From Methylobacter sp. S3L5C (GTDB lineage: Bacteria; Pseudomonadota; Gammaproteobacteria; Methylococcales; Methylomonadaceae), in the NCBI RefSeq assembly GCF_022788635.1, contig NZ_CP076024.1:2294001-2358000 (forward strand): 64,000 nt of DNA, read 5' to 3'. Position 1 is the stretch's first letter; the number at the start of each line of letters is the position of its first letter. Positions 5,177-8,890 of this stretch are shown piece by piece. The notes beneath the pieces are model-generated. The model was given only the letters and a program-made list of their open reading frames with translations, was not told where the DNA came from and made no database searches. The translations under genes and the position numbers were made by a program.

Positions 5177-5238
5177 TTCACCATGAAGGCACGAAGGACA
5201 CGAAGTTTTTAATCTTTACTTCGTGCCTTCGTGGTGAA
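5177..5238. repeat. Palindromic intergenic repeat (CACGAAG type)
   Basis: Left arm 5177-5196 (TTCACCATGAAGGCACGAAG) and right arm 5219-5238 are reverse complements with one mismatch over 20 bp, separated by 22 nt. A related copy with a disrupted left arm lies at 54986-55107. It could also terminate ispG, but there is no clean T-tract directly after the stem. Confidence 0.75.
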
Positions 5239-5889
5239 TAATTTTTTTAACCTGTTTTTGATAATACTTTCACAGTCTCGTTAACTTCTGCATTCATGCA
5301 GTCTTAATCTAACCTGCGGCGCTGTTCTCATTTCCAGACCCCGGGCTTTGAAAACGAGTGTAACCAATGTTTCTCTGCCTCGGTTGGCAGATTTTTATCC
5401 TGTTCAAAATTTTACGCAAGACATCCTCCAGCCAGATGCCACAAAGTTTTGCCCTGCCGGCAGTCAATTTTCTATTTCATCGCCAAATCATTTAATCTGG
5501 TCTTATTCAGTGCAAAATATGCATCCAGCTGCACTTTATTGGAGCGATATATTCGTTAGCCTAAAAGTTAATGGTTACCAGCTATATACATCATTCTATA
5601 ATCTCTCCTGTAATAACTTGTATTTATTGAGCTATTTTAAATATAAATACGCATATAAAATTTTGGCATAACTTATGCTTTAATCCCATCATAGGGCTAA
5701 AGTTGAAGTCACCGCTCCCTGTATTGTTCCTGATATTCAGGGTTGAGATGCTTTTTTGTATTGTTGGCAGTCTATAAAAGCCTTGGCCAAGTTTTACCTT
5801 ACATTGTTTATTAAAGCCCATCTTCTCACTTCGTTATAAAAACCTTCAGGATTACTGCGAATCATTGTCTGAAAATTATTTATCCATGT
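5239..5889. other. Gene-free stretch, nothing recognised
   Basis: About 650 bases between the ispG-distal palindrome and the IS200/IS605-like element. Short open frames exist on both strands (for example 5348-5671 plus, 107 codons), but they lack a ribosome site and a protein-like composition. I see no RNA gene. Confidence 0.5.
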
Positions 5890-6252
5890 GTAGCGTAAAA
5901 CCCCGCCGTTCAGGGCGGGGATGTAAGCGGCTCAGATCTACTTGCTTCAAAATACGCACGTTGTTAAAATAACGCCCGTTTGCTGCCAGAGGCGGCTTAG
6001 GCTGGCTCTACGGCGGCAATTTGGTTTTTAAAGTATAGACTTCAAAAGCACTTTCAGCAAAAACCAAGCGATAGATGGAAGTCTTGAATACTCGATTAAA
6101 ATAGTAAAATAACCGTCGGATAGACGGGGCTAGTCTGTGAAGTGAACGGTGCAGTAATGCCATCAGCAGCAGGAACCAGTGAGCAGTAGCGATACCTACT
6201 CACTCTTGGGAAACCAGGAATCCCCCTTCCTTTATGTGGGGGAGGATGTCAA
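5890..6252 (+). mobile_element. Compact IS200/IS605-like element without tnpA, tnpB or iscB
   Basis: Two ends of the IS200/IS605 type frame about 360 bases with no open reading frame. The left end has a subterminal hairpin CCCCGCC (5901-5907)/GGCGGGG (5914-5920) followed by ATGTAAGCGG. The right end has CCCCC (5'-arm 6222-6226)/GGGGG (6238-6242) followed by AGGATGTCAA, closing at 6252, the form often seen at right ends of tnpB/iscB elements. No target duplication is expected for this family. The interior is a structured RNA rather than a gene. Exact ends are estimated. Confidence 0.65.
5901..6252 (+). ncRNA. Omega/HEARO-like structured RNA inside the compact element
   Basis: Base pairing seen directly: TTGGTTTTT (6021-6029) pairs perfectly with AAAAACCAA (6059-6067), while AGTAT (6032-6036) and GACTTC (6038-6043) pair with ATACT (6088-6092) and GAAGTC (6078-6083). 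The two helices interleave, so they form an H-type pseudoknot. Further hairpins are CCGTC/GACGG (6113-6117/6123-6127), GTGAG..GTAG/CTACTCAC (6179-6189/6196-6203), and the terminal C5/G5 stem. Known TnpB and IscB guide RNAs come from such element ends and contain pseudoknots. Assignment to omega RNA versus HEARO is by resemblance only. Confidence 0.55.
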
Positions 6253-6319
6253 CGGAACAACTATAGGATCTCGTCAATGCCTTATTTTGTTGTTTAACAC
6301 TTTAATAAGGATTAATTAG

Positions 6320-8890
6320 ATGCTATCTGAAGCCGAGCGCTTTGAAACTTTCTCCCCTTATATACGCAGCATTGCGCAGTGCAAGGAAATTCTCCGGGAC
6401 TTGAATGGTACTTGGGGACTGATTTCATCGATTGCTGAAATCAGTTGTCCTAAAGAGGCAGCTTCCATACTACCTGCGATGGAAGCAACAAAAAACGGCT
6501 TTCGTGATCTTGAAAGTAAATTAACCGGACAACTGGTTTCTGAAGAGATTAAAAAAACTTGTCTTGAACTTGAGTCCAAAGCGCAAGTATCGATAGATAT
6601 TTTGGTTCGTAACCTTTATGAACGGACTGCGGATATTGGTTTTCTGGCGACTAATGCCGATATATGTAATTTTGTAAATACTACGGTACAAGGTCAAAGA
6701 GCAGACTTGTCGATGATTAATCAATTACTCGACGAATACGGCTCAAAATATACCGTATACGATGACATTATTATTCTGGATACCGACAGTCGCATACTCG
6801 CCAGGCTCGACCGTAATACCGCAATAGTCAATCAAAGTATTTCCGACCCGATTATTCCTGAGACCTTACACTCAATCGAAGATTATGTTGAATCCTTTGG
6901 CAAAACTCAACTCCGGCCTGATATAGATCGGGCTCTTATTTATTCAAAAAGAATAGTCGATCCGGTTGATGACTCGGTGATTGGCGTTTTATGTCTGTCA
7001 TTTCGTTTTGATAACGAGATGGAAGGGATCTTTCGCAGCCTGCAGAAAAGAGGCGATAAAGCGGCGATGCTGCTTTTAAATGCCAATTCTGTCGTGATTG
7101 CGACGAGTGACCCTGACCATGTGCCGATTGGCCGGGTCATTGAAGCGGTTACGGAAGGTGATGACTATGGCGTGACTCAGTTTGCCGGGCGTGAATATTT
7201 ATCGGTAACGCATAGAGGTCGTCCCTATCAAAGTTATGCCGGCCAAGAGTGGTACGGACATGCGATGATTCCATTGCAGTCGGCATTTACTCCTTCTGCT
7301 GCTGACAAGGAAGTTAATGCCGAAATTATTCGCCATGGAGATTCGTTGTATCCCAAGCAATCCGGGGTTATTGCTGGCGCTGCCAAAGATATCAATCTGT
7401 TTTTGCACCGGGTAATTTGGAACGGTCAAGTTATGGCAACTAACGAGCATGGTAATATTATCTCGCTCAAAGCCATTTTAAGACAAATACGCTCCATGGG
7501 CGCACGTACGGCTCAAGCACTTGCCGATTCCAGTAGTAAGTTACATACCACGATGATCACCTCGGAACTTCGTAATGCCGAATCTATTGCACGGCTTATG
7601 ATTGATATTATGGATCGCAATTTGTATGAGCGCAGCAATGATTGTCGCTGGTGGGCCTTGACTTCAGAAATTCGGCGCATTATGTCGGCAGGCGATCTAC
7701 GTTCTGATGATAAGGCAAAAATTACCGATATTCTCTCTTATATTAATAAACTGTACACGGTCTATACGCGCATTGTTATCTATGATATCAAAGGGACTAT
7801 CATCGCTGAATCCAATTTGCATAATGATCCGGTGGTTGCAGTCGGGCGACAGGTAGATGCCGGTTATGCGCAGGAGAGTTTTTCCCTGCGCTCACCGCAA
7901 GAATACAAGGTTTCCAGTTTTGAAGATTCCTGGCTGTACGAGGGGAATTCTACTTATATTTACAATGCAGCTATCCGACATATTGATGATCTGGATAAAG
8001 TTGTTGGTGGTATTGGTCTTGTTTTTGATTCAACGCCTGAATTTAAACATATGCTTGATGATTGCCTGCCTGATGAGCCAGGCGTTTTCGGGTTATTTGT
8101 AGAACGTCCCAGCGGTCGTATTATTGCCTCAACCGGAGATTCCAGCTTTAAAAATGGTCAGATTTTTAGCGCAGATCCTGAGTTTTTGGAGCTGAAAGAA
8201 GGCAAAGGAAAATCCAAAATACTACTGTATAACAAAAAATATTATGCCGTTGGCTGTTACTCATCGGGTGGCTATCGTGAATTTAAAACAACAGGCGATT
8301 ACCATAATGATGTTGTCGCTTTCGTGTTTATTCCTATTGGTGAAAAGACCGAAGAGACAGAATCCAATCAACGTGAAATCATCGTTTATCCGCCAGAGCC
8401 TGTTGCAGGTAACGTTATCGATTTGGCAACATTCTATATTGGTTCTGAAATCTATGCCTTTTTTGCCGCCGATGTGCTGGAAGCGGTCGATGTTTCGCTG
8501 ATCAAAACCCTGCCCGGTACAAAGTCTTATATTATCGGCAGCGTGATGTATTGCGATAATAGTCCCGAGGGAATCAACGAAAAAATGCCGCTGATAGTCA
8601 TTGATGGCAGAATATTGACCAATATGCCCGTTGAGCAGGATCGGCAAGAAAAAGCAACGGGTGCCGTTATTATAATTCGTACCCAGAACGGCCAAATTGG
8701 TTTATTGGTTGATGAATTGGATGCCATTGCTACTTTTGAAGAAACGGCAATCCAGCCAGTTAACGGGTTACTTGGCGAGGACGGTGGCTATATAAAATCA
8801 TTAGCCAATATCCCGGACAGTAACGGTTCCAGTAAGATACTGATTGTATTGGATCAGAACATGATTCTCGATGCTGCTCGTAACCGATAA
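6320..8890 (+). CDS. Double-sensor protein with C-terminal CheW-like domain
   Basis: 856 residues, no signal peptide and no obvious membrane segment. Two related sensor units occur in tandem: NLYERTADIGFLATNAD at about residue 97 followed by a Cache-like KYTVYDDIIILDTD (about 143), and NLYERSNDCRWWALTSE at about 433 followed by LYTVYTRIVIYDIKG (about 477). The last 160 residues, from about 699, read as a CheW domain (FYIGSEIYAFFAADVLEAV, IGLLVDELDAI). The methyl-accepting coiled-coil signalling tip of chemoreceptors is absent. It may couple a sensor directly to CheA. TTAATAAGGATTAATTAG before the ATG gives a good ribosome site. Partner genes are not nearby. Confidence 0.7.
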   Translation: MLSEAERFETFSPYIRSIAQCKEILRDLNGTWGLISSIAEISCPKEAASILPAMEATKNGFRDLESKLTGQLVSEEIKKTCLELESKAQVSIDILVRNLYERTADIGFLATNADICNFVNTTVQGQRADLSMINQLLDEYGSKYTVYDDIIILDTDSRILARLDRNTAIVNQSISDPIIPETLHSIEDYVESFGKTQLRPDIDRALIYSKRIVDPVDDSVIGVLCLSFRFDNEMEGIFRSLQKRGDKAAMLLLNANSVVIATSDPDHVPIGRVIEAVTEGDDYGVTQFAGREYLSVTHRGRPYQSYAGQEWYGHAMIPLQSAFTPSAADKEVNAEIIRHGDSLYPKQSGVIAGAAKDINLFLHRVIWNGQVMATNEHGNIISLKAILRQIRSMGARTAQALADSSSKLHTTMITSELRNAESIARLMIDIMDRNLYERSNDCRWWALTSEIRRIMSAGDLRSDDKAKITDILSYINKLYTVYTRIVIYDIKGTIIAESNLHNDPVVAVGRQVDAGYAQESFSLRSPQEYKVSSFEDSWLYEGNSTYIYNAAIRHIDDLDKVVGGIGLVFDSTPEFKHMLDDCLPDEPGVFGLFVERPSGRIIASTGDSSFKNGQIFSADPEFLELKEGKGKSKILLYNKKYYAVGCYSSGGYREFKTTGDYHNDVVAFVFIPIGEKTEETESNQREIIVYPPEPVAGNVIDLATFYIGSEIYAFFAADVLEAVDVSLIKTLPGTKSYIIGSVMYCDNSPEGINEKMPLIVIDGRILTNMPVEQDRQEKATGAVIIIRTQNGQIGLLVDELDAIATFEETAIQPVNGLLGEDGGYIKSLANIPDSNGSSKILIVLDQNMILDAARNR

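Follow-up and report, generated by a model that had tools for sequence, protein, structure and literature searches.

What is a 369-bp element with transposon-type ends and no protein gene doing in the chromosome of Methylobacter sp. S3L5C? The element lies between ispG and a gene at 6320 in a 64,000-nt stretch of contig NZ_CP076024.1 (positions 2,294,001 to 2,358,000, forward strand), here called the window, and all coordinates below are window positions. An initial annotation had described a guide-RNA-like interior and proposed either a trans-acting guide locus, as known for IscB, or a minimal element mobilised by proteins in trans. Both proposals fit and are not mutually exclusive; the IscB label does not fit. 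The element was homologous to TnpB guide RNAs (omegaRNAs) and inserted exactly at its site. The protein-less form had spread in many copies in relatives, with a conserved, covarying omegaRNA. The best reading is a self-transcribed, trans-acting guide element stranded in its own genome. Put more fully, it is probably a non-autonomous IS200/IS605 element that remains a complete guide-RNA gene and is served in trans by full relatives. The features are as follows, with the evidence for each.

5879 to 5883, + strand: target pentanucleotide TTTAT (left border of copies in different flanks; present in the empty site of the relative G034)
5884 to 6252, + strand: whole element, 369 bp, ending in TCAA (exact gap against the G034 empty site)
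5901 to 5920, + strand: left-end (LE) hairpin CCCCGCC/GGCGGGG (sequence; similar LE in loci L063 and L171)
5942 to 5970, + strand: promoter-like TTGCTT, 17 nt, TAAAAT, with a TG extension (TGTTAAAAT at 5962-5970) (by eye)
5980 to 6019, + strand: hairpin A, TTGCTGCC...GGCGGCAA (fold; 81% identity between species)
6037 to 6084, + strand: hairpin B, stem AGACTTC (6037-6043) / GAAGTCT (6078-6084) (stem kept across lineages)
6054 to 6071, + strand: hairpin B loop TCAGCAAAAACCAAGCGA, matching tnpB mRNA at the (E/D)(N/S)QA codons before RuvC-II
6109 to 6252, + strand: omegaRNA scaffold of IS605 TnpB type, start approximate (model R1, tnpB stops in relatives, covariation)
6222 to 6242, + strand: right-end (RE) hairpin CCCCC/GGGGG, part of the omegaRNA scaffold (sequence)
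6253 to 6272, + strand: predicted guide, host DNA outside the element (omegaRNA rule in passages of PMC10278001; aligned with the empty site)

The borders of the element were fixed at 5884-6252 by an empty site in G034, a genome of the same genus. Comparison of the two sites gave an exact insertion of 369 bp after TTTAT without target duplication. In G034, where the flanks are joined, GAAAATTATTTAT is followed directly by CGAAACATCTACAGG; in the window, GAAAATTATTTAT is followed by the element and then by CGGAACAACTATAGG. The right flank was located in one other genome (G034) among 35 same-genus genomes and was 94% identical over 948 nt, and the left flank was 83% and then 70% identical. The extent given at first, 5890-6252, was correct on the right, and the element starts six bases further left. 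The IS200/IS605-type ends were borne out, since TTTAT (sometimes in a near form), the left hairpin and mostly a terminal TCAA recur in copies with unrelated flanks. Over 57 nt, the LE shares 89% identity with that of L063, and the complete element L171 has a similar left end. TTTAT would also be the target-adjacent motif of the guided nuclease. As had been stated, the element holds no protein gene: there was no open reading frame of at least 60 aa, and the longest, of 51 aa, is too short for a transposase.

Palindrome-associated transposable elements (PATEs) are short, have IS605-type palindromic ends, make no target duplication and are too short to code (passages of PMC3119063 and PMC7290912). 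The present element has near-terminal palindromes as in the IS605 element L171, a fixed target, no duplication and a non-coding length. Judged from its sequence, 5884-6252 is an IS200/IS605-derived non-autonomous element (PATE) without tnpA or tnpB. It is single-copy in its own one-contig genome (G000), where no other copy was found; relatives carry elements of its own type in multiple copies. The refuting condition set at first, that neither the genome nor its relatives hold another copy, therefore does not apply. The many copies in different flanks imply mobility.

On homology and covariation, the right 144 nt is the omegaRNA scaffold of an IS605 TnpB and not a HEARO RNA. The guide-like interior described at first was therefore correct in kind and wrong in type, because the right half shows homology to the 3' end of tnpB and its omegaRNA. 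The covariance model R1 scored 160.9 bits at 6109-6252, and the element's own row had helped build R1. The identity of this segment to 12 omegaRNAs filed as TnpB-linked was 81-94%, including 92% to L171, L017, L051 and L185; the 94% match is L049, a contig-edge copy filed as TnpB-linked from 22 nt. A tnpB stop codon was read at the start of the shared omegaRNA block in L017 and L051. In the autonomous relatives L017, L051, L171 and L282, the scaffold ends at the RE and its position is the tnpB 3' end. TnpB is the annotation at places in plasmid records that match the scaffold, among them a record of Pseudomonas aeruginosa.

The covariation of 20 aligned copies was 0.452 against 0.044-0.097 for slid controls, with 20 of 30 pairs changed on both sides and none of 500 shuffles equal, on a structure derived from the same alignment. 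In 27 TnpB-less rows the value was 0.340 against 0.042-0.075, with 97.2% of cells paired and again none of 500 shuffles equal. The right-end helix was left out of this second test, as the structure did not map onto that alignment there; helices 1-5 covary. The folded stems noted at first were found in the whole element, which was more stable than 100 shuffles (z -2.7), and in its 5' part, which was more stable than 200 shuffles (z -3.2). The 149-nt omegaRNA part alone was unremarkable (z -0.6, 54 of 200 shuffles as good), so the claim of structure there rests on covariation.

The protein-less form is common among relatives. The R1 search, with stricter filters and 31 candidates scored per genome, gave matches in 25 of 101 genomes, the own genome included. 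An exact DNA pattern scan of an 84,980-species collection returned 28 stretches, all titled Methylobacter or Methylococcaceae metagenome-assembled genome (MAG), and a similar scan of viral contigs returned one match. The viral contig IMGVR_UViG_3300045995_000547 (L190, 8437-8586 and upstream) carries a TnpB-less element with a left end, the GATAACCAAGCG motif and an omegaRNA. The omegaRNA set comprised 131 non-redundant places, from which 27 were dropped (E above 1e-15, partial copies among them) and 104 at E below 1e-15 were scored. A left end lay 21-345 nt upstream, without TnpB, in 52 of the 104; it had E below 1e-3 in 46 and was weak (E above 1e-3) in six (L213, L056, L181, L057, L149 and L222). 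The others were directly behind TnpB (21), within 300 nt of a contig edge (24) or neither (7).

The element's own layout, with the LE about 230 nt before the omegaRNA, also occurs in ZH-Oct18-38, LH_M5, titanis and E2 bin 55, and in ZH-Oct18-35 at 251 nt. G030 has a shorter layout of 157-175 nt nine times. In three own-type copies of G104 (L216, L261 and L263), the first half of the left end is swapped for one common sequence, GCGTTACTCTACCTCCTGCATCCATGCA..., which looks as though a copy had gained a new left end that then spread. TnpB-less copies and TnpB genes coexist in some genomes. Within genomes, the omegaRNAs of TnpB-less and TnpB-linked forms were 74-97% identical; the best value, 97%, was reached in G101 and in G030, there against the contig-edge copy L049. 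The model R2, built on the 5' domain alone, was run on 311 genomes of the order with 10 candidates scored per genome, so its counts are lower bounds. It found the domain in at least 18 genomes, some of them already in the set, and at 30 loci or more. In 26 of 30 loci an omegaRNA stood directly behind the 5' domain; L297, L300 and L305 reach a contig end, and L299 is rearranged with the omegaRNA inside the matched stretch. A tblastn search with the L171 TnpB matched none of the 30 loci. Many copies of its relatives lie dispersed in other methane-eating bacteria, which suggests a life as bare guide RNAs that depend on the proteins of fuller cousins.

The locus L171, in a Candidatus Methylobacter titanis MAG, was read as a complete partner. 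It has TTTAT, a similar LE, a divergent tnpA that includes HVHLLV, a 393-codon tnpB that ends in GNQPSDRRG inside the omegaRNA block, and TCAA. Searches with its TnpB gave an intact gene in two genomes, G102 and G105, and fragments alone in G030, G101, G103, G104 and G106, several of which sit at contig edges. The same search was negative in G034. The initial annotation had left the choice between its two proposals to the organism's set of TnpA, TnpB and IscB. In G000, this set amounts to no TnpB match, 14 Y1_Tnp matches and one IscB-like fragment. The Y1_Tnp matches include one intact 142-aa gene, broken copies and two longer genes, which we take to be RAYT-like. No cognate TnpA was found among the 14; the best, the intact 142-aa gene, had 23.6% identity over 123 aa to the L171 TnpA. 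Since neither TnpB nor a cognate TnpA was found in G000, the element looks like a stranded copy in its own genome.

The spacer between the LE and the omegaRNA keeps one order in own-type copies: TGTTAAAAT (an extended -10), hairpin A, hairpin B and omegaRNA. The promoter-like site was found in relatives with a permissive pattern and is conserved in their alignment, and several G030 copies also have TTGACT, 16 nt, TATACT. Over 66 between-species pairs of 13 elements, mean identity was 85.6% for the omegaRNA without the RE hairpin, 83.6% for the LE, 80.7% for hairpin A, 74.8% for hairpin B and 47-59% for the linkers. The named stems were paired in 93.7% of cells against 30-51% when slid, counted in 16 of 21 own-type rows (five ZH38 rows with a misplaced gap were excluded). 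Thus conserved, the spacer appears to be more than debris. Hairpin A had no pair with changes on both sides in the own-type rows, and no match above shuffles was found for it in complete elements. When 11 spacers were compared by alignment to two tnpB genes and to the tnpA/LE region of L171, most did not stand out. A few matches beat 200 of 200 shuffles, and these lay at differing sites: the ZH38 spacer matched nt 130-290 of tnpB, that of G043_L149 the tnpA/LE region and that of G012 the left end itself. The ZH35 spacer against tnpB was equalled by 1 of 200. A general origin of the spacer as decayed tnpB was not supported, as the matches are scattered; the hairpin B loop is the exception.

The stem of hairpin B is kept with a sequence that changes by lineage: AGACTTC/GAAGTCT, AAGTTTC/GAAACTT, AAGGTTTT/AAAGCCTT and others. 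When matched arms of nine lineages were compared with swapped arms, 8 of 20000 permutations were as good, in a register chosen after inspection, so the test is partly post hoc. Early spacer alignments missed this stem, in our view because the arms were misaligned. The loop of the element's own hairpin B matched 16 of 18 positions at nt 785 of the L171 tnpB, and none of 300 shuffles did as well. For 15 of 16 TnpB-less variants, the loop 18-mer matched best at a single site, the (E/D)(N/S)QA codons, in all three tnpB genes compared; the sixteenth mapped there in one of the three. The matched codons end four codons before the Glu of VIEDL, presumably the RuvC-II residue. Hairpin B is thus most likely a piece of tnpB mRNA.

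Synonymous codons favour pairing of the two arms before the RuvC-II codon in many, not all, of the tnpB genes tested. Recodings that paired as well numbered 1 of 300 for L171, 4 of 300 for L231, 2 of 300 for L282 and 24 of 300 for L026. Pairing was above the recoded mean in 14 of 16 regions, where the windows were chosen after seeing L171 and several regions are near copies of one another. With windows fixed, it was above the mean in all eight further plasmid genes (L315-L322), with tails of 47, 64, 22, 66, 33, 278, 25 and 390 of 1000. In most of the 16 genes, the minimum free energy of the region was unremarkable. The idea that hairpin B mimics the omegaRNA core in sense was also considered and rejected, as such mimicry was clear just in ZH38 (0 of 200), LHM5 (4 of 200) and OWN (9 of 200) among 11 lineages.

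How would a bare guide work? The element would consist of a left end, its own promoter, hairpins A and B, the omegaRNA scaffold and a right end, with the guide taken from flanking DNA. Transcription would start from the promoter in the spacer. Where a cell also carries a full relative such as L171, the element would be moved in trans by TnpA. TnpB loaded with the element's omegaRNA would then cut the TTTAT site emptied by excision, and repair would restore the element, as in the retention model in which a guided nuclease cuts the emptied site (passages of PMC11870625 and PMC10278001). Hairpin B may tune the cutting by TnpB.

The element shares short length, IS605-type palindromic ends, non-coding sequence and insertion without duplication with published PATEs, one of which holds an LE, the last 58 nt of tnpB and an RE (PMC7290912) and another an extended terminal segment (PMC3119063, PMC7290912). 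It differs in that a promoter-like site, two more hairpins and a complete omegaRNA with covariation are retained across species, and passages of these two papers do not treat PATEs as guide-RNA genes. As with the TnpB omegaRNA of IS200/IS605 in passages of PMC10278001, the scaffold ends at the RE with the guide outside, and in relatives the tnpB 3' end overlaps or abuts it. Unlike that RNA, it has no tnpB upstream and would start at a promoter of its own and carry hairpins A and B ahead of the scaffold. Nety et al. found that nt 825-875 of the AmaTnpB mRNA, next to the RuvC-II site, inhibit DNA cleavage, and proposed pairing with the omegaRNA (passages of PMC10278001). The hairpin B loop lies in a similar place beside RuvC-II, by position in tnpB rather than by alignment to AmaTnpB; here the hairpin stands in protein-less elements, and pairing with the omegaRNA is not supported. 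PATEs and omegaRNAs are each already known. Stand-alone omegaRNAs of IscB were reportedly described in Ktedonobacter by Altae-Tran in 2021. They too are encoded apart from the nuclease; the present RNA is of TnpB type, and the guide itself is a mobile multi-copy element. In searches of a library without Altae-Tran (2021) and Meers (2023), we noticed no account of TnpB-less elements as mobile guide genes or of hairpin B, so absence from print is not established.

Several results weigh against a functional guide element. Both omegaRNA covariation tests use structures derived from one of the alignments, and covariation in TnpB-less rows may be partly inherited from TnpB-bearing ancestors. The excess of TnpB-less over TnpB-bearing copies is inflated, because the assemblies of many relatives are fragmented, with contigs that break off at the repeated TnpB elements. 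A consensus promoter scan reported nothing in the element. Covariation of the own-type 5' domain was 0.090, not above slid controls (0.111 at +2 columns). The unrestricted test of stem B was weak (64 of 2000), and the viral copy has no stem B. In 9 of 11 lineages, complementarity between hairpin B and the omegaRNA fell below the shuffle mean; it was stronger in G043_57 (60 of 200 shuffles as strong) and tit_214 (15 of 200). Base pairing between the two was therefore rejected, and any role of hairpin B must differ from the pairing proposed for AmaTnpB. The lack of a TnpB match and of a cognate TnpA among the Y1_Tnp matches of G000, together with partial omegaRNAs in some copies, would also suit a plain PATE: a remnant left by deletion and mobilised by TnpA in trans, without guide function, in which the omegaRNA has survived by recent descent or overlap with the RE. 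In L307 (G314), an own-type copy and an example of decay, the omegaRNA match ends about 30 nt in; the omegaRNA of L020 is without its 5' part, and L060, L061 and L143 match the last 49-75 positions alone. We regard the plain PATE as a serious though rather doubtful reading. TnpA should need just the right-end hairpin region, yet about 110 nt upstream of it are 86% identical between species against 47-59% in linkers, and the TnpB-less rows show covariation in omegaRNA helices 1-5. Conservation extends to hairpins A and B, for which we know of no transposition role.

A trans-acting HEARO/IscB guide would likewise be structured and protein-less with IS605-like ends, and G000 does hold an IscB-like fragment. 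This explanation, already disfavoured, is highly improbable. At gathering score the window gave no HEARO (RF02033) match, nor did the surroundings of the element at E 10, and the best in the genome was a single sub-threshold match of 20.5 of 83 bits away from the element. No Rfam family at all reached gathering score in the window, and five chance-level matches at E up to 10 lay near the element. The sole RRXRR match in G000 is an isolated fragment of 48 of 174 positions (L313, G000:C1:3120769-3120912); no intact IscB was found there. With the right half belonging to the TnpB omegaRNA, HEARO identity was rejected. A regulatory RNA or terminator kept by the host between ispG and the gene at 6320 is quite unlikely. 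Such a role would explain a single copy with intact RNA parts 67 bp before the downstream open reading frame, but G034, the sole other genome in which the right flank was found, has an empty site, and copies inserted at unrelated sites conserve these parts as well.

If the element is indeed a mobile guide gene, the omegaRNA and not TnpB can be the spreading unit, and one TnpB serves a crowd of dependants, each with its own guide. A broader view is possible, and we put it forward tentatively: guide-only transposons with a promoter, a regulatory hairpin derived from tnpB mRNA and an omegaRNA may be widespread and exploit the TnpB and TnpA of full elements. The tnpB hairpin next to RuvC-II would then be a general restraining RNA switch, kept because bare guides also need restraint. 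Nety et al. raised the question of whether inhibition by tnpB mRNA is a conserved property (passages of PMC10278001). This becomes testable, as several protein-less lineages keep the RuvC-II-side segment as a hairpin, and the synonymous codons that favour pairing there in tnpB genes bear on the same question. Between ispG and the element, an inverted repeat, CCATGAAGGCACGAAGGACACGAAG...CTTCGTGCCTTCGTGG, was also observed at 5177-5239, and G034 carries a shorter form of it.
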